NCBI RefSeq assembly: GCF_002115805.1
Contig: NZ_JFKC01000002.1
Span: 1 to 64,000 of the forward strand
Reading direction: 5' to 3'
Source of the DNA: Marivita geojedonensis
Lineage (GTDB): Bacteria; Pseudomonadota; Alphaproteobacteria; Rhodobacterales; Rhodobacteraceae
DNA length: 64,000 nucleotides
In this document: positions 26,528-40,213 of the stretch, one piece after another
Layout of the letters: each line of letters opens with the position of its first letter
Position numbering within the stretch: position 1 is the stretch's first letter
Position numbers and translations under genes: made by a program
Notes under the pieces: model-generated
Database searches by the model: none
What the model saw: the letters and a program-made list of their open reading frames with translations, nothing else
What the model was told of the DNA's origin: nothing

Positions 26528-28945
26528 TCAGGCGAATCCGTCGAACGGATTGTCGATCACACCCGCGAGCTGAATGATGAAGGTGTCTGAGTCCGGCTCT
26601 CCGGCCTCAGTTGCCCATCCGTCGATCAGGTCCTTTGCCTCTCGCAGGCTGGTGATGCGGTCGAGTAGGTCATAAGTCGCCAATGCGGTGGTGGCATCGG
26701 GGACGTCCGACAGCCCGTTGATGGCCGCGAAGTAGAGACCGAGATCGACCTGGTCCTGCAGTGTCTGCACATCGACGGCGGAACCGGTTGGTGCCCGGGC
26801 CCCTTCGTCGATCAGGGTGAAGAACTCGGGCACCGAGATCACGCCCAGCTCCAGAAGCCCGGTCCAGAAGACCTTGCCTGCAAGATCGACCTCGCGATCG
26901 AAGAAGTTCTGGAATGCGGCTTCTACGATCTCTTCCGAGCTGGGGGCAGCACCGTACAGAGCAATCGCTTCAGGGCTGTTGATGAAGGCCTGAGCAATCG
27001 TCGCCTCCTCGAGCCCGTTGGCCAGCTGCGTTGCCCAGAAGAAGAGGCCAAGTGCATCCGGAGCCCGGTTGAAGAGACCCACGTAGAACTGGGTGATCAC
27101 CTCCAGTTGCGCTTCTGTCAGGCCAAGGACACCCGCATACCCATCCAGGTCGAACGTCGTGCCCGAGTCCGGCGCTCCTGCCGGGTCGTCGCCGAAGCGA
27201 AGCGTTTCGATACCGATCAGCAGATCCGACCCGTCACCGTCTGCACGGCGGTCGGTGACGATAACCCCTTCCGGCGTGATGGCGATCGTATAGTAGCCCG
27301 CCGGTCCCCTGAACACCGCAACATCCGCATCCCCGGGGCCGCCGTCGAGCAAGTCATCACCTGCGAGACCGACCAGCGTGTCATTACCGCCGAGGCCCCG
27401 CAAATGGTCGGAAATCTGTGTGCCGATGAGCAGGTCGTCGGTATCGCCGCCGCCCTGATCGGTGTCGGGAACGACAAAGCTCAGCGCCACGCTGTCCTCG
27501 GGGCCGGAGCCAAGAGTGGGATCGTCAAGCTCGATCACCAGATCGAGCTGCGGTGTCGACACCGGGTCCAGTGCGATCCCCGGCTTGAGGTAGAGCGCAC
27601 CTGCATCAAGCTCGAACACCGTCGCATCCGACCCCGTGAGGCTCAGCAGGTTGCTTCCAGTGCCGTCGTCGAGGATGGTAACGGAGGCCACCTTGAGGCG
27701 GTCCGGACCCGATACCCCTTCGGGAAGCGCAGAGAATATCTGGGAAACCGACAGTTCCGGGGCCTCGTTGACATCCGTTATGGTGACGCTCAGCGGAACG
27801 CTGTTGCCGGCTCCCCCAAGGGTTGGGTCGCTCACCGTCACTGTCAGGTCGAGTGTCGCATTGGTCTCGTGGTCCAGAGCAGTCCCCGCCCTGAGGAACA
27901 GCGACATGCCATCGATTTCGAACAGGCCCGCGTCCGGTCCGGTGATGGACAGAAGATTTGTTCCCAGGCCGTCGTCTGCAATCATCAGATCCGCGACTTT
28001 CAACCGGTTGGACAGGGCCGTGTCCTCGGGCAACGAAGCGGTCGTGCCGGACAGCGTCAGAGTCGGAGGAAGATTGCTGGGGACATTTTCAAAGACAGTG
28101 AGATCGGCAGACCCGCCATTGATCGCATTGGCGGTTGCGGTAATGGTCACGGACTGACTGCCATCGAGGATGCCATCGTTCACCGCAGCCACCGTGAAGC
28201 TGGCGGAGTCATTTCCGACACCGATCACCACAGAGCCGGGCACAGTCGCCTCGGTGAGATCACTTGAGGTCAGGTAGACCGTCAACGCGGTCGATGTATC
28301 TCCGGACCGGGTTACGGTTCCCGTCGCCACGCCCCCGGTTTCCGCGATGCTGGTGGGCAGCAGCTCAACCGTCAGGTTGCCGAGGCGCTGCAACTCGACC
28401 GCACCCAGATCGACAAAACCTGCGCCATCATTGCCCACGCCCGGCAGATCGACCGCGCGTGGAAACCCTTGCGCGTCCGTTGTGAGACCTGAAACAGGAG
28501 ATACCTGGTCAAGCGCGGGGTTGGCCGCGTCGGCCAGCAGCGCGACGGTCTCGACCGGCCCGCCATTATCCGCCAGAACACCCGCCGTGGTGCTTGCGCC
28601 GCCCACGGTCAACGTCTGCGTCTGCGCAAACACCTCGTCCGCCGAAATCCCGGTGGCCTGCTCGACCCCGTCGATGCTGAAGCTGTCGCCGACGATGTTG
28701 CCGCCCGTGAGCGCGAGTGTCGCGCCGGGATGAATGCTCAACTCATCGTCTGCCGTCTGCGCCGACAGGTTGCCGACCACAAGGCTGTTGGTCAGGGTTA
28801 TGGCACTATTACGAGCGTACAGACCGCCACCTTCAGCAGTTGCACCCGTCGTAGAGTTCCCGGTGACGGTGCTATTGGTCAGCGTCACGTTGCCAAAGCG
28901 GGTATGCAGCCCGCCACCATTGGCAAATGTTCCCAGTGTGGAGTT
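26528..28945 (-). pseudogene. Truncated giant adhesin-like protein: beta-helix, Calx-beta, cadherin-like, RTX, DUF4214
   Basis: About 805 residues remain; the 5' end is cut by the IS5 element at ~28945. The remaining start is beta-helix repeats (LTNSTVTGNSTTGAT, GGGLYARNSAITLTNS) with a choice-of-anchor-Q style stretch. A Calx-beta domain follows (VTRSGDTSTALTVYLTSS), then two cadherin-like repeats (NLPPTLTLSGTTASLPEDTA, NEAPELSVSQIFSALPEG). RTX calcium-binding nonapeptides come next (LGGNDTLVGLAGDDLLDGG), and a C-terminal DUF4214 domain (EVITQFYVGLFNRAPDALGL). Intact proteins of this kind are secreted by type I systems and act at the cell surface. Lacking its own promoter and N-terminus, it is probably not functional. 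Confidence 0.8.
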
Positions 28946-29569
28946 ACGGTGGCGCGACGCGCCTGCGGATTATGGTCCGCACAAGACGCTGTACAACCGT
29001 TGGAAGCGGTGGAGCGACAAGGGTATCTTCGCTCGAATGATGACAGGTTTGGCCGCAGATCACGGAGAAAAGAAGACTGTTATGATCGACGCCACATACC
29101 TAAAGGCACACCACACAGCGACCAGTTTGGGCGTCAAAAAGGGGGGCGCGGCCGCCTGATCGGTCGGACAAAGGGTGGTATGAACACCAAGCTGCACGCC
29201 ATCTGCGACAGCCAGGGCCGCCCGCTCAACCTGTTTGTCACCGCAGGTCAGGTCAGCGACTACATCGGAGCGCGAGCTTTGCTGAGCAGTATTCCTGATG
29301 TTGACAGGTTACTCGGAGATCGCGGCTATGACGCAGATTGGTTCAGAGAAGCGTTGAAAGACAAAGGGATACGCGCCTGTATCCCCGGTCGAAAGCAGAG
29401 AAAGACGACGATCAAATACGACAAGCGCCGATATAAACGGCGCAACCGCATCGAGATTATGTTTGGCAGGCTCAAGGATTGGCGACGCGTGGCGACACGC
29501 TATGACCGCTGTCCCAAGGTCTTCCTCTCAGCCATCGCACTCGCTGCTGTCGTGATCTACTGGTTATGA
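28946..29569 (+). pseudogene. IS5-family transposase, two frames joined by programmed frameshift, N-terminus missing
   Basis: Frame A reads LRWRDAPADYGPHKTLYNRW, then WSDKGIFARMMTG, MIDATYLKAHHTATSLG and ends at 29159. Frame B continues RGRLIGRTKGGMNTKLHAIC, then SIPDVDRLLGDRGYDADWFR and MFGRLKDWRRVATRYDRCPK to 29569. The shift point is the slippery run A5G6 at 29136-29146, as in IS427-group elements that make the full transposase by frameshift. DDE residues are visible at MIDATY, LGDRGYDAD and the final RIEIMFGRLKDW region. About 40 N-terminal residues are missing. Confidence 0.82.
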
Positions 29570-29740: not shown

Positions 29741-30496
29741 ATGGCTATGCCTGCTGACAGCCGCGACTACGCTGGTATGGCGCATGATAATCGCTCCCGA
29801 CTCCATTGGCTTGACGTCGCGCGGACGGCGGCGCTCTGCGGCATGATCGCCTTCCACTTCGTCCGCGACATGGAGATGTTCGAATTCATGCCTCCGGGAA
29901 CGACGCTTGGCGGCTTCTGGGCGGTCTTCGCCCGACTAGTCGCGGGCTCTTTCCTACTCCTGTCGGGGGTCAGCTTTGTTCTAGCCCATGGTGATGGCCT
30001 TCGGCTGAAAGCGTGGGCAAAACGAATAGCTGTCATCGCCGGTGCCGCGGTCCTCGTTTCACTCGTAACCCGCCTGGTCATGCCGCATGCGTGGATTCAG
30101 TTCGGAATCCTTCACGCGATTGCCGCAGCAAGCCTTCTCGGTGTGATATTGCTTCGCGCGCCAGCACTCGTAACAGCGGCTGCAGCAAGCGCGGTCCTGG
30201 GATTATCGTTTGTGCTGGGGCGTAGCCTCGATCTACCCTCGTGGATGGTCTGGACGGGTCTCGGCGCGGCAGTGCCGCCATCGCTCGACTACATCCCGCT
30301 CGTACCTTGGCTTGCCCTATTCCTGATCGGCATGGCTCTTGCACAGGCCGTCGATCCCGCTCGGTTGGAACCTCGCTGGAAGACACCGCCACCGCTTGCC
30401 CTGACGCTACCCGGGCAACACAGTCTTCTCATCTACCTCGTTCATCAACCGATTCTGATCGCCATTCTCGCCGCGTTTTCTTGGGTTCTGCGGTAG
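29741..30496 (+). CDS. DUF1624 (HGSNAT-like) multi-pass membrane protein
   Basis: The protein is 251 residues with about seven hydrophobic segments. The start RLHWLDVARTAALCGMIAFH is the typical first helix and charged turn of DUF1624 proteins, related to heparan-alpha-glucosaminide N-acetyltransferase and acyltransferase-3 families. GSFLLLSGVSFVLAHGDG and YIPLVPWLALFLIGMALAQ follow, and PGQHSLLIYLVHQPILIAI ends the domain. Members may acylate envelope sugars, but most are uncharacterised. ATG 29741 follows GGGAG. It is monocistronic or leads into the following lipoprotein pseudogene. Confidence 0.8.
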   Translation: MAMPADSRDYAGMAHDNRSRLHWLDVARTAALCGMIAFHFVRDMEMFEFMPPGTTLGGFWAVFARLVAGSFLLLSGVSFVLAHGDGLRLKAWAKRIAVIAGAAVLVSLVTRLVMPHAWIQFGILHAIAAASLLGVILLRAPALVTAAAASAVLGLSFVLGRSLDLPSWMVWTGLGAAVPPSLDYIPLVPWLALFLIGMALAQAVDPARLEPRWKTPPPLALTLPGQHSLLIYLVHQPILIAILAAFSWVLR

Positions 30497-30532: not shown

Positions 30533-30829
30533 ATGAAGAAGATCAAGATCACGGCAGCGCTGTCTGCTGCGTTTGTTCTGGCGGGCTGCGTTGAGGATAC
30601 GGGCGGCGTGGTGACATCTTCCTCATCGGCGGCGGAGCAGGCGTGCCTGCAGCGCGTGTCAATCGAGACCAAGAATGCAGATGTGTCTGTGCTAAGGTCT
30701 AGCTTTTCCTAGGCTGGGACGGAAGTCATCGTCGGCGTGGGACCCCAGCAAGCACCATGGCAGTGCATTGCCTATAGCGACGGCTCGACCATACGTCCGA
30801 TGTCTTTGACGAACGAGGGCTTTTTGTGA
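30533..30829 (+). pseudogene. Small lipoprotein gene with an in-frame amber stop
   Basis: ATG 30533 follows AGGAGGA. The protein begins MKKIKITAALSAAFVLAGCV with lipobox VLAGC, then EQACLQRVSIETKNADVSVL. TAG at 30710-30712 interrupts it, where a glutamate or glutamine codon would differ by one base. The same frame continues AGTEVIVGVGPQQAPWQCIA, then YSDGSTIRPMSLTNEGFL to the stop at 30827-30829. The conserved continuation shows a recent nonsense mutation. It resembles the lipoprotein at 4366 in layout. Confidence 0.75.
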
Positions 30830-30879: not shown

Positions 30880-31545
30880 ATGCAAGTGGAACCTAGAATC
30901 TTCAAGGCAGCGGTGTTGGCCGTGATTGCCTCTCTGAGTGTTGCAGGCACGGGCAAAGCCGATGTAAACGCCCGAGACGGTGGCCCGTCGCGTTCGGAAA
31001 TGCTCGCACGAAGCAACACGGGCGCGCCCGACGGCAGCGCCTTCTTCCGTCCGGTCCTTGACGGGGTCTTATATCGCGGAGGTTTCTCAGGCGGAGACAA
31101 AGGCCGCACCGGCCTCTCCTCGTCACAGCGGGAGGCTCTCTGTTCCGAAGGCTTCTCTCGTGGCTTCTATGCCGATTTCGGAAAGAACACTGATTACGGT
31201 GTAACATCTTGCGGTGATGGCAATTTCGACTATCAGGCCGCACGTTCCTCAAGACCTGCAAACGTGATGAAGGCGATCCACGACGTCATCAAGAATGGTG
31301 ACGGACCGGTCTACGTCCATTGCATGTGGGGCGTTCACTCCTCGGGCGCCCTTTCGGCTATGGCGCTGGTCCAGTTCTGCGGCTGGTCCGAGGAGCGTGC
31401 CAAGGAATACTGGAACGACGCACGCAACGGCGCCCCATGCTCAGGTGGTTGCGACAAATGGATCGACGCAAAGTTCGACCGCTTCTCAGTAGATCAGAGC
31501 CTGTCGATCAGTGACGCCGAGCGCGCCGCGATTTGCCCCAAATAG
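30880..31545 (+). CDS. Exported protein-tyrosine-phosphatase-like protein with altered P-loop
   Basis: The protein is 221 residues with a signal peptide (AAVLAVIASLSVAGTGKA). The fold pattern is that of dual-specificity/PTP-like phosphatases: VLDGVLYRGG near residue 60, a helical middle, and the P-loop GPVYVHCMWGVHSSGALSAM around residue 148. The active-site HC is present, but the arginine expected six residues after the cysteine is Ser ~154. It may be inactive, use another residue, or act as a phosphate-binding protein. Four further cysteines (AICPK, CSGGCDK) suggest disulphides. ATG 30880 follows GGGAGAAG. It is the first gene of an apparent four-gene operon. Confidence 0.7.
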   Translation: MQVEPRIFKAAVLAVIASLSVAGTGKADVNARDGGPSRSEMLARSNTGAPDGSAFFRPVLDGVLYRGGFSGGDKGRTGLSSSQREALCSEGFSRGFYADFGKNTDYGVTSCGDGNFDYQAARSSRPANVMKAIHDVIKNGDGPVYVHCMWGVHSSGALSAMALVQFCGWSEERAKEYWNDARNGAPCSGGCDKWIDAKFDRFSVDQSLSISDAERAAICPK

Positions 31546-31556
31546 GATGTTCGAAG

Positions 31557-32981
31557 ATGCGCCTTGTTCTTTCTGTTGCAGCCCTGCTTTTGCCGACTGC
31601 CCTTTGCGCATCGGATGCGGTTGAAGGTGACGTCACTGTTTTCGAAAGCCCGAACGGAGTGGCCGAACGCTGCGTCCGCATCAAACCGCTCCCCGGCGCA
31701 GAATACTCGAAAGATGATCTGGAAGATGAGGCAGCTTTCTGCGCCATCAACTTCTATGCCTCTGACGTGGCGCTTTGCCCGAAAACATGGAGCACAAGCC
31801 CTGGAATGATGGTCTACGACATCAGCGCAGGGCCTTATGCAAATGACCGTGCCGCGTTCGAACGGAATGCCTGCAAGGAAGGGAAATCGGCCAAGGATCT
31901 GGCAAAAGACGATCTCGCCAAGTTCAAGGTAACGATGAACCAGAAGGGAACCAGCGGCACCTTTGCACCGTCATCCCTGCTCTACTACCACTTCTCCCGC
32001 TACTTTGACATGATCGTCCATGTTCCCGTGTCAGTCTGGCGTTCAATGGACAAGGAACGTCATGCAACTGAGGTCGCCAAGCCCGGACTAGCGATCTCGG
32101 GTACACACGCACGGATGAACCATGAAGGCTGGCGTTGGCTGGTCGAAAGTGAAGCAAATCCCTCACTTTATTCGCCGACCGATGATCTTTTCACGACAGA
32201 CCGCAAGAACATATACGGCGTAATGGTTCTAAGTCCGGGTCACCGGTATGGGGCCGAAATCAACGGAACGAGGAAATCCGGCTGGGGCAAAGGACAAAAC
32301 CTTGATTTTCAGGAAACCCCGGCCTTCCTCGCACTCCGGACCGAGGCGCCCCTGCGTGACGCAATTGCACGTGGACTGGCCGAAGGGCGCAAAGACAGCA
32401 CGATTTCCAAGGATCTCGGGCCAGATGTAAGCGAGGAACAAATGGCTTACTGGATGCGCGAGCTGTCCGAAATTGTCCTGCTGGATTTCATCTTCAGCCA
32501 GCAGGACAGGGTCGGAAATATTGACTTCACGCCCTACTACTACTGGGCAGAAGGGGGCGACCTTGAACACAAGAAGGCCAAGCACCACGAAGCGGGTGAC
32601 GGAACCGTCCCGGAAGGCGCGCAGCTGATCCGCCGGACGAACCTCAATGACAATGACGCAGGCGGACGTGTCCAATATGCAAACTTTGCTAAATCAACAC
32701 AGATGTTGGGAAAGCTTCGTCATTTCGATGCCGGCGTGTATCGAAAGCTCGTAGCACTCGATGCGGACCTGCAGTCTCAGGGACCTATCTACCAGTGGAC
32801 AGCAAACAGCCTTGGCCTTAGCGAAGGAGAGGTATCACAGATCGTCAAGAACACTGAGTTGGCGACCCGGATATTGCAGGACAGCTGCCGACGCGGAGAC
32901 CTGATCTTCGACCTTAACCCGAAAGAGTTCTTCCTGACCGGCGACACGACCCCGGACGACGTGGATTGCGATGCTGACTGA
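31557..32981 (+). CDS. Exported kinase-like protein (atypical, Fam20/PI4K/CotH-like pattern)
   Basis: The protein is 474 residues with a signal peptide (MRLVLSVAALLLPTALCAS). I do not recognise the family, but three blocks resemble atypical kinases. Residues 122-165 have KFKVTMNQKG and SSLLYYHFSRYFD, then VHVPVSVWRSMD, like the lobe where a lysine binds ATP and a partner helix follows. Residues 308-323 (LLDFIFSQQDRVGNID) match the catalytic-loop pattern D-R-x-x-N. Residues 363-369 (LNDNDAG) could be the metal-binding aspartate. This suggests an extracytoplasmic kinase. It follows the phosphatase-like gene by 11 bases and overlaps the phosphoesterase gene by 11 bases. Function is inferred, not established. 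Confidence 0.55.
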   Translation: MRLVLSVAALLLPTALCASDAVEGDVTVFESPNGVAERCVRIKPLPGAEYSKDDLEDEAAFCAINFYASDVALCPKTWSTSPGMMVYDISAGPYANDRAAFERNACKEGKSAKDLAKDDLAKFKVTMNQKGTSGTFAPSSLLYYHFSRYFDMIVHVPVSVWRSMDKERHATEVAKPGLAISGTHARMNHEGWRWLVESEANPSLYSPTDDLFTTDRKNIYGVMVLSPGHRYGAEINGTRKSGWGKGQNLDFQETPAFLALRTEAPLRDAIARGLAEGRKDSTISKDLGPDVSEEQMAYWMRELSEIVLLDFIFSQQDRVGNIDFTPYYYWAEGGDLEHKKAKHHEAGDGTVPEGAQLIRRTNLNDNDAGGRVQYANFAKSTQMLGKLRHFDAGVYRKLVALDADLQSQGPIYQWTANSLGLSEGEVSQIVKNTELATRILQDSCRRGDLIFDLNPKEFFLTGDTTPDDVDCDAD

Positions 32982-33861
32982 TACGTTAATCGCGGGCGGC
33001 ATTGCAATCGTCGTTGCGTCGCCTGCGGTCGCATTGCAAGTTGCCGTAATATCGGACCTTAATGGATCATATGGCTCTACAGACTACGGGAGCCAAGTCG
33101 CGGACGCGGTATCCGCGATATTGGAACTCCATCCTGACTTGGTTCTCGTGACAGGTGACATGGTCGCGGGCCAGCGTAGACCGGTCCTCGCCACAAGCGA
33201 AGTCAAGGCAATGTGGGATGCTTTTCACGCGATCGTCACCGAGCCACTAACGTCTGCCGGCATCGCTGTGGCCGTTACCCCCGGGAACCATGACGCGTCG
33301 GCCTACGACGCTTTCAGGGCAGAGCGGAACGTCTATGCGAAAGAATGGCGCGACAGGCGACCTGACGTGTCCTTCAGTTCGGACGAAGAATACCCTTTCT
33401 CCTATGCCTTCGACGTCGATGGGGTGCGTTTCGTATCGCTAGATGTGACGACAGTCGGTCCGTTGTCGGCCGACCAGGTCGTGAAACTTGAGAGCGTATT
33501 TGAGGGCGCCGGCGAGACCCGCATCGTCTTCAGTCATCTTCCGTTGTGGGAATTTGCACAGGGTCGCGAAACCGAGATTATCGGTGACCCAGAACTGGCT
33601 TCGGTCTTCGAGACGCTGGGCATCGATCTGCATCTCTCCGGGCATCACCATGCTTTCTATCCGGGAGCGTCGGAGGGCATCGCCTATGTCGGTCAGGCCT
33701 GCCTTGGTGCCAGCCCGCGTAGGCTCATGGGGGCGTCAGACCGTGCGCCGCGCGGATTTACCCTTCTCGACATCGACGTTGACACCGGAGACATTGTTAT
33801 TGATTTCCGGGCGTCTCCCGATTTCACCAATCGATATGACCACGCTTCCGCCTCGTCTTGA
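32971..33861 (+). CDS. Exported calcineurin-like metallophosphoesterase
   Basis: The protein is 296 residues with an N-terminal hydrophobic signal (LIAGGIAIVVASPAVA). Metal-binding motifs appear in order: AVISDLNGSYG (the usual DxH reads DLN), LVTGDMV, TPGNHDAS, VFSHLPLWEF and LHLSGHHHAFYPG. The fold hydrolyses phosphomonoesters or diesters with two metals. The change of the first histidine to asparagine may lower affinity for one metal. The start codon overlaps the end of the kinase-like gene, implying coupled translation. With its neighbours it suggests a periplasmic phosphorylation cycle. Confidence 0.82.
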   Translation: MLTDTLIAGGIAIVVASPAVALQVAVISDLNGSYGSTDYGSQVADAVSAILELHPDLVLVTGDMVAGQRRPVLATSEVKAMWDAFHAIVTEPLTSAGIAVAVTPGNHDASAYDAFRAERNVYAKEWRDRRPDVSFSSDEEYPFSYAFDVDGVRFVSLDVTTVGPLSADQVVKLESVFEGAGETRIVFSHLPLWEFAQGRETEIIGDPELASVFETLGIDLHLSGHHHAFYPGASEGIAYVGQACLGASPRRLMGASDRAPRGFTLLDIDVDTGDIVIDFRASPDFTNRYDHASASS

Positions 33862-33930
33862 AGGTTTCGAAGCGAGTCTGATCCGGATTGATCTGGCTAA
33901 TCTGCCATCCGTTCATTTGGAGCCCCGCGA

Positions 33931-34689
33931 GTGACCAAGACGCTATCTTATCTTCTGCTCGGTCTCATCGCACTTACGGCACCCTTAGCCGCCCAGACGA
34001 TCGAGGGTGCAATAACGATTCCTAGCGAGTTCGATATCCATGATCGCGGCTGGGCGCAGTTGCGTGACCTTGAAGAGGTGAGTGAGTTCCTGTTTGCCCT
34101 TGTCGAGGCGATGGCAATGACCGCAGCCATTGCCTTTCATCCGCGCATCGTCGCGCGCCGCCGGGGCAGCAACGACTGGGACCTGCCGCGGTCGATGTTT
34201 CTATACGCATTGATCGGCTTGGTCGTCGGTTTCCTCGTCATTCACCACGGCGTACTGATAGGATTCGTGGTCTTCGGAATCGGTGGACTATTCCGGTTCA
34301 GAATGGAGACGCTCAGCGCTTCGGACACTGCGCTGATGATCTTCGTGGCGCTGATCGGTCTGTCGATCGGTCTGGATTTGCCGGTTATGGCCCTGCTCCT
34401 GACGATTGCTGCGGCCGTTGTTCTTTCTGTCTTTTCCCGGCAGTTGCATATCTCGATCGAGATCAAGTTTGACAACACGGAAGATTTCACCGGAAAGGTC
34501 GCGCGGCTACGCGATGCTCTGTCGGCCGAGGGCTTCGCGACGCGCACGGTCACGAAGTCGAAGTTCAAACCGTTTGCTGAGATCGTGCTTTCGACTTCTG
34601 AGGAGAGCCCAAGTGAAGCCTTGGCAGCTACCCTTACAAAGCACCAGGCTAAGCCAGATAGCGGCATTGAAGATTGGCACATCGAATAG
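33931..34689 (+). CDS. DUF4956 membrane protein
   Basis: The protein is 252 residues, starting at GTG 33931. A signal/first helix (YLLLGLIALTAPLAAQTIE) is followed by membrane segments at ~52-70, ~88-112, ~130-155 and a C-terminal cytoplasmic domain. The family motif is GLFRFRMETLSASDTALMIF, then VALIGLSIGL; compare the canonical RFR...DTA of DUF4956. The C-terminal part (HISIEIKFDNTEDFTGKVAR) has an ACT-like look. DUF4956 genes often sit with CotH-kinase and polyphosphate-polymerase (VTC) genes, which fits the kinase-like gene here. It is the last gene of the operon. Confidence 0.75.
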   Translation: MTKTLSYLLLGLIALTAPLAAQTIEGAITIPSEFDIHDRGWAQLRDLEEVSEFLFALVEAMAMTAAIAFHPRIVARRRGSNDWDLPRSMFLYALIGLVVGFLVIHHGVLIGFVVFGIGGLFRFRMETLSASDTALMIFVALIGLSIGLDLPVMALLLTIAAAVVLSVFSRQLHISIEIKFDNTEDFTGKVARLRDALSAEGFATRTVTKSKFKPFAEIVLSTSEESPSEALAATLTKHQAKPDSGIEDWHIE

Positions 34690-38738: not shown

Positions 38739-39490
38739 TCAAGCCGCCAACAGATCGCTCTCCAGCTTCTCAAACAACGAGACATCTTCCTCGGGGCTTT
38801 CGAACAGATGCCCGTAGGTGTCCATCGTCATGGTGATAGAGGCATGTCCGAGCAGTGTCTGGATCTTCTTGGGGTTCCAGCCCTGCTCGATAAAGAGCGA
38901 CGCCGCCGCATGCCGAAGAGCATGGATGCCGAACTTCGCCTCCCCGCGATCGTTCACGATGCCGTTTGCGACCAGCATCGGCTTGAAGATACGATTGTAG
39001 ATGTTGGAGTAGTTCTGCACCCGCCCAGCGCCATTCGGGAAGACGAGCTCCAAATCGTTCTCCAGAGCCTCTGAGCGCCACGCTGAGAGCGTCTGATGAA
39101 CAATTGGGGCCATAGGGATATCGCGCAGCCCAGCGCGGCTCTTGGGCGCTCCCATCGCCCCGAACTCGTCGGCGCGTTTCGTGACTTTGATCACCCGACG
39201 GGTGAGATCGACGCAGTCCCATGTCAGCCCGCGCAGTTCAGAGATCCGCATGCCTGTGAAGATCGCCGTGATGAACATCGCGCGATGGCTTGCGGGAGCG
39301 TTTTCGATGATCAGCCTGATCTCGTCTTTGGTCGGGATGATCTTCTCATCTTCCGCAGTCCGAGACTTGCGACGCAGCTTCACATCCAATGCCACATTGT
39401 GGGTGATCCATTCCCGTTCGACGGCCTCGGAGAGGATCGACCGCAGGCTGACCATGACCTTCTTCACATGTGCCCGGGAGACGCCCTCGC
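38739..39490 (-). pseudogene. Tyrosine recombinase (element integrase), N-terminus cut by IS3
   Basis: About 250 C-terminal residues remain. The catalytic domain is complete: Arg in TGMRISELRGLTWDCVDL, HALRHAAASLFIEQGW with the H-x-x-R pair, LLGHASITMTMDTYGHL with the second histidine and the Tyr nucleophile. The end FESPEEDVSLFEKLESDLLA is duplicated as a remnant at 11708-11771. The frame is open to ~39490, where IS3 orfA sequence begins in the same strand, so the N-terminal arm-binding and core-binding domains are lost. It was probably the integrase that used the tRNA-Phe sites. Confidence 0.82.
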
Positions 39491-39586
39491 CGACCAGCGG
39501 CTCTCATGCTGCCCCGCGTTGTCCAAAACCATCCGTACGGCACGTTCGCGCACTTCTGGGGAATATTTGTTCGTCGTCTTGCTCAT
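39490..39586 (-). pseudogene. IS3-family orfA, N-terminal fragment
   Basis: From ATG 39586 on the minus strand the frame reads [20 protein letters not shown], then [11 protein letters not shown], the helix-turn-helix start of IS3-type OrfA (usually ~90 residues). After about 32 codons it runs into the integrase gene. The product would be non-functional. Confidence 0.75.
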
Positions 39587-39640
39587 GATGCTCCATCCTA
39601 CTCAGGAGTTGGAGCCTCCGGAAAACCCGGCGCGGTTCAG

Positions 39641-40213
39641 GTGCCACCTAAACAGCCGAAGAGATCCAGGCTGTGGCTGAACGACGGATCCTGCATCAGA
39701 CTGCGCCCGGAGTATCAGAACCATGTTTGGAGCTATGACTTCGTCCATTGCCGCACAGACGACGGCAAGGCGTTCCGAACATTGAACATCCTGGACGAGT
39801 TCAGTCGAAATTGCCTGGCGATACGCGTGAAGCGAAAGCTGAACTCGACCGACGTGATTGATGCCCTCACCGACCTGTTCAACCTGCGCGGGCCGCCAGC
39901 ATTTGTCCGCAGCGACAATGGTCCTGAGTTCGTTGCCAGGGATGTCAGAGCTTGGATCGAAGCCGTTGGCGCCAAGACCGCCTTCATTGAGCCAGGCAGT
40001 CCTTGGGAAAACGGCTATATTGAGAGCTTCAACGCTCGGTTCCGGGACGAACTGCTGAACAGGGAGATCTTCTACTCGCTCAGAGAAGCCCAGATCATCA
40101 TTGAGGGTTGGAGGAAACACTACAACACGAAGCGGTCACACAGCGCTCTAGGATACCGACCACCGGCGCCAGAAACCATTGTCTCGATGGAACCCAGGCC
40201 GACAATGCACTAA
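39641..40213 (+). pseudogene. IS3-family orfB (transposase catalytic part), 5' end missing
   Basis: The frame reads VPPKQPKRSRLWLNDGSCIR, then NHVWSYDFVHCRTDDGKAF, PAFVRSDNGPEFVARDVRAW and SPWENGYIESFNARFRDELL. All three DDE residues (D in SYDFV, D in RSDNG, E in YIES) remain, as does the final HYNTKRSHSALGYRPPAPE. The N-terminal ~90 residues and the orfA frame are missing upstream, replaced by an inverted IS terminus. It is not translated from its normal signal. Confidence 0.8.

Follow-up and report, generated by a model that had tools for sequence, protein, structure and literature searches.

A four-gene operon of Marivita geojedonensis may encode an extracytoplasmic phosphoryl-transfer module, in which gene B would supply a kinase-fold enzyme and A, C, D and possibly a fifth gene, E, its partners. 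The probability of this reading is put at about 0.5. The window, i.e. the whole stretch of DNA that was analysed, comprises 64,000 nucleotides (assembly GCF_002115805.1, contig NZ_JFKC01000002.1, positions 1 to 64,000 of the forward strand). As originally predicted, the four genes lie on the + strand with intergenic spacings of 11 (A/B), -11 (B/C) and 69 (C/D) bases:

30880..31545, + strand: gene A, exported protein with a predicted dual-specificity-phosphatase (DSP) fold and a degenerate P-loop
31557..32981, + strand: gene B, exported protein with a predicted Fam20-like kinase fold
32971..33861, + strand: gene C, exported calcineurin-type metallophosphoesterase
33931..34689, + strand: gene D, DUF4956-like membrane protein

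Signal-peptide-like N-termini are present in A, B and C, in agreement with the export proposed for the three proteins, and D has several membrane segments. Kinases acting outside the cytoplasm are rare in bacteria. The combination of the kinase-fold protein B with the phosphatase-like protein A, the phosphoesterase C and the membrane protein D points to an undescribed system by which phosphate is attached and removed extracytoplasmically; no description of it was found in the literature searched, a scope outside which most subscription journals lie.

Conservation and genomic setting of the operon

Relatives of B with 67-76% identity are encoded on 23 other contigs of Rhodobacterales, and on all 23 B is flanked by A and C, the three genes being adjacent and co-oriented (C is cut by the contig end in one case). 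Of 29 loci that extend 3.5 kb or more on each side, 28 have C, 27 have A, 26 have D and 21 have E, a gene that encodes an SdiA-regulated/phytase-like propeller and directly adjoins D. The D-E block is located either downstream or upstream of A-B-C, with D inverted in some clades, and the preservation of two blocks in permuted order argues that both serve one function. Lack of a conserved neighbourhood in other genomes had been named beforehand as refuting the original prediction, and the neighbourhood turned out to be kept. All four genes are under purifying selection (dN/dS is 0.02-0.17 in every close pair with unsaturated dS).

Within the family, B is intact in 16 of 296 genomes and decayed in one more (G397). 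A occurs in 14 of these 296 genomes, always beside B, and D in 13, all of which are also A genomes. Co-occurrence of A, B and D by chance has a probability below 1e-20 under independence, an assumption that common ancestry and the transfer of the genes as one operon violate. The four genes are a real unit, far beyond chance. A class-wide search of 385 genomes detected B only in the M. geojedonensis genome itself and the module was absent from 16 genomes of the same genus, so that its distribution is patchy; the module belongs to a minority of marine Rhodobacterales. Among plasmids and viral contigs, no B homologue of known function was found. Two genomes lacking both A and D count against the full-module reading: one encodes B alone (G579) and the other B and C (G657), so that not every genome requires the remaining parts. 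The remnant of B-C in G397 (L049 4966-5979) contains stops and frame breaks and shows that module loss occurs.

A second complete copy, A-B-C-D-E, is encoded on contig C36 of the same genome (L026 1-14217), where it adjoins a tyrosine recombinase-like gene (L026 12597-13313); E is absent from the copy at 30880-34689. Neither E nor this second copy could be seen when the original prediction was made. In the tree of B the two copies do not group as sisters, which makes separate acquisition probable. The operon in the window is located among mobile elements. Integrase-like and transposase-like genes are found downstream at 38739-40213. A long minus-strand gene at 26528-29569 encodes an adhesin-like repeat protein, the start of which extends into a transposase gene (28730-29569), which hints at truncation by an insertion. 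A promoter and terminator scan gave nothing above chance. Two further features lie upstream of the module:

29741..30496, + strand: HGSNAT-like (PF07786) membrane acyltransferase, an optional neighbour
30533..30829, + strand: small lipoprotein-like frame, broken by an in-frame TAG at 30710-30712

The HGSNAT-like acyltransferase is found near 10 of 40 related loci. In many loci, relatives of the small frame are found no more than about 7 kb from the module, including a larger one (L026 5618-6226) with which it has a W-x-C-x-A-Y-S-D-G-like motif in common.

Predicted fold and candidate active site of B

A Pfam search of B gave no match. No Pfam kinase family matched any of 20 B members, PF06702 (Fam20) giving nothing at E<=10, and the profiles for CotH, HipA and PI3K-PI4K had no match in B either. 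Neither NCBIfam nor the PDB sequences, the latter searched with the single sequence and with a profile, yielded a homologue of known function. A search with PF06702 across the phylum gave nothing above the cut-off, and the B HMM scored Fam20 sequences no better than shuffled ones.

The AlphaFold2 model of B, built from an alignment of 23 sequences that left out the most divergent B members, has a pLDDT of 70 and a pTM of 0.75, with middle segments below 50. In a Foldseek search of 350,542 PDB chains, ranks 1-25 were all Fam20 proteins, namely Fam20C, Fam20A, the C. elegans Golgi casein kinase and Hydra Fam20, with E-values from 1.5e-3 (probability 1.00) to 0.08. Weaker matches were PI3Ks, only at E of at least 0.49, and unrelated proteins; a viral fold library gave nothing useful. 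The original prediction had compared B with several atypical kinases and had made its fold a refuting test. The predicted fold is kinase-like and specifically Fam20-like, which supports the kinase idea at the fold level, but CotH and HipA are absent from the 50 best PDB fold matches. The TM-scores to the Fam20 matches are low (0.28-0.45), which is compatible with a partly wrong model and does not in itself prove the fold.

A rival reading, which we consider improbable, regards the Fam20 similarity as an artefact, caused by a model that is shallow and of low confidence, and B as an unrelated enzyme or binding protein that is exported. The pLDDT, the TM-scores and the negative HMM control would fit such an artefact, but the 25 best matches among all chains searched come from a single family, and its helix ending in DR is the one stretch in which the sequence profiles of B and Fam20 agree too. 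In this profile comparison of B with the Fam20 sequences of the PDB, controlled by 150 column shuffles, the DR core of the helix beats 150 of 150 shuffles and the whole C-lobe 148 of 150; the N-lobe is not significant (37/150). Sequence support for the kinase idea is thus confined to the DR-motif helix. The DRVGNID and NDNDAG motifs of the original prediction are present where it had placed them, and the candidate active-site residues of B are as follows:

31926..31928, + strand: Lys124 (FK of AKFKVTMN), invariant; candidate counterpart of the Lys of FKPM in Fam20C, aligned by eye
32505..32519, + strand: D317-R-V-G-N321, candidate catalytic loop; D317, R318 and N321 invariant in 20 diverse members
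32649..32657, + strand: D365-N366-D367, candidate DFG/DNG-like metal site; invariant in 20 diverse members

These seven residues (K124, D317, R318, N321, D365, N366, D367) are unvarying down to 39-40% identity, and nearly all of the six Cys of mature B are conserved. D317 is aligned to Fam20 by the profile, and D365/D367 are placed by order. A common order of elements can be read by eye, which is not a test: a beta-strand with FK, a helix with YYHxSR in B and AFHLDR in Fam20, a strand with VP, a long gap, the helix ending in DR, and DND or DNG, followed in both by four helices ending near a Cys. An FJX1 (Four-jointed) sequence was negative against shuffles in the same kind of direct HMM comparison as Fam20, so that its resemblance to B by eye is no more than a lead; a search of the PDB for an FJX1 structure found none.

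In Fam20C, Lys271 and Asp478 bind ATP and metal (PMC5413348), and a Mn-coordinating Glu is essential, which is a Gln (Gln258) in the pseudokinase Fam20A (PMC7948968). No conserved acidic counterpart of this Glu is found in the aligned beta3-alphaC segment of B, where the N-lobe alignment is uncertain. The sequence profile and this residue speak against B as a member of the Fam20 family (PF06702) itself. B might be a pseudokinase like Fam20A, or use the fold for another transfer (cf. SelO, SidJ), so that the module would sense or bind a nucleotide or phospho-ligand outside the cytoplasm with C as its sole phospho-enzyme. This is unlikely but deserves consideration: besides the Glu without a counterpart in the aligned segment, the partner A likewise lacks its catalytic Arg (see below), and ATP is not expected in the periplasm, which is not known to hold it. 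On the other hand, the D, N and DND residues for metal and catalysis, which pseudokinases often lose, are invariant in B. That the periplasm is not known to hold ATP and that the Glu has no aligned counterpart also counts against B as a kinase of any sort, as do the mediocre model, the negative HMM and N-lobe controls and the lack of a Pfam kinase match. The model supports B as a Fam20-like kinase-fold protein, and B may be an active kinase.

The partner proteins A, C and D

A matches DSPc in Pfam weakly (2.8e-3, below the cut-off). Its model (pLDDT 79) gave 82 PDB matches at E<=1e-3, and those listed are essentially all of the DSP/PTP type, with human STYX (2r0b) first and the Pseudomonas phosphatase TpbA, which is also exported, among them. 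A resembles these proteins in its predicted fold and in the HC of the P-loop. In contrast to them, the loop of A (HC-MWGVH-S-SG) keeps the Cys (C148, 31321-31323) but carries S154 (31339-31341) in the position of the catalytic, phosphate-binding Arg, and all 38 A members have HCMWGVH(S/A)SGA. In STYX, the Cys is lost instead of the Arg. The designation of A as PTP-like therefore holds for the predicted DSP fold, but the expected HCx5R loop is HCx5(S/A) throughout, and A is probably not a standard phosphatase. For the proposed phosphorylation/dephosphorylation system this means that the kinase-like fold of B speaks for the first part, whereas plain dephosphorylation by A is not supported and the picture needs correction there. 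Strong purifying selection on a protein with an Arg-less P-loop points to binding or regulation as its role, or to a changed chemistry.

The assignment of C as a calcineurin-type phosphoesterase was borne out by Pfam (Metallophos, PF00149, 6.5e-14, above the cut-off). C has motifs II-V of this family intact (GDMV, GNHD, SH, GHHH), but motif I is SDLN (D29, N31), and SD(L/F/M)N in its relatives, i.e. DxN instead of DxH. As the metal motifs are otherwise kept, phosphoesterase activity of C is likely from its sequence. Distant homologues of C are rare in the phylum. A C-like metallophosphoesterase with 35% identity is encoded on an Acaryochloris plasmid (L059 7001-7729), where the rest of the module is absent and there is no similar operon.

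D can be called DUF4956-like rather than a DUF4956 protein as first proposed: its match to PF16316 (4.3e-4) scores 20.5 bits against a curated cut-off of 30.6, and its relatives also remain below. The D family has an invariant core. The association of DUF4956 with CotH kinases is documented for Gram-positive Pel polysaccharide clusters, in which DUF4956 genes lie beside genes for a CotH kinase and a polyphosphate polymerase (PMC7112168).

Proposed mechanism and comparison with known kinase systems

In the proposed phosphoryl-transfer module, exported B with its Fam20-type fold would bind metal and a phosphoryl donor, either a nucleotide or another one, through K124, D317, N321 and D365/D367, and would phosphorylate a secreted protein or glycan. 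C would remove phosphate from, or break a phosphodiester on, the target or product of B, and A may be a non-catalytic phospho-binding or regulatory partner. D and the exported beta-propeller E would be the second sub-block, with the task of anchoring the module or of providing donor or substrate. It is rather doubtful that bacteria own the complete extracytoplasmic phosphorylation cycle that could be imagined from these parts, with a Fam20-type secretory kinase regulated by a pseudophosphatase, a phosphoesterase as its counterpart and a DUF4956-type membrane protein providing the phosphoryl donor across the inner membrane.

The target may be an exopolysaccharide or surface glycan instead of a protein, with B as a glycan kinase, C as a glycan phosphoesterase and the HGSNAT-like enzyme acetylating the glycan. 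This is a sub-case of the phosphoryl-transfer module and not exclusive of it, and we regard it as a serious, if tentative, possibility. Fam20B phosphorylates xylose. The two most divergent B genes adjoin DUF3131 genes and a GT2/polysaccharide-deacetylase fusion or its relative, and together with the HGSNAT-like neighbours this makes a glycan substrate as likely as a protein substrate; the company of CotH/DUF4956 genes and Pel clusters points in the same direction. However, no glycosyltransferase was seen in the conserved core, and the divergent B loci lack A and D.

If the phosphoryl-transfer reading is true, a bacterial exported Fam20-like protein makes the donor problem, i.e. phosphorylation where there is no ATP, directly testable, and likewise the origin of secretory kinases, and a function is offered for DUF4956-type membrane proteins. 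A kinome survey describes the FAM20 cluster as specific to eukaryotes or Metazoa (PMC9758233). B resembles Fam20A, Fam20B and Fam20C in its export, its conserved cysteines, the predicted fold (at TM-scores of at most 0.45), the helix ending in DR and, judged by order, a later conserved Asp (DND in B, DNG in Fam20). It differs from them in having no Pfam or HMM match and no recognizable Mn-binding Glu, in its catalytic loop (D-R-x-x-N instead of DRHHYE), in a long insertion before DND, and in being bacterial and encoded in an operon with phospho-enzymes. Until activity is shown, the system is best called a variant of known atypical secretory kinase modules. By analogy, its nearest parallel is the CotH/DUF4956 arrangement of Pel clusters, in which an atypical surface kinase has the same kind of membrane partner (PMC7112168). 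Both systems would combine an atypical kinase-fold protein with a DUF4956-like membrane protein in a surface-related locus; in contrast to the CotH system, B has no CotH Pfam match, and the module, at which no polyphosphate polymerase was seen, has genes for a PTP-like protein, a metallophosphoesterase and a propeller in its place.
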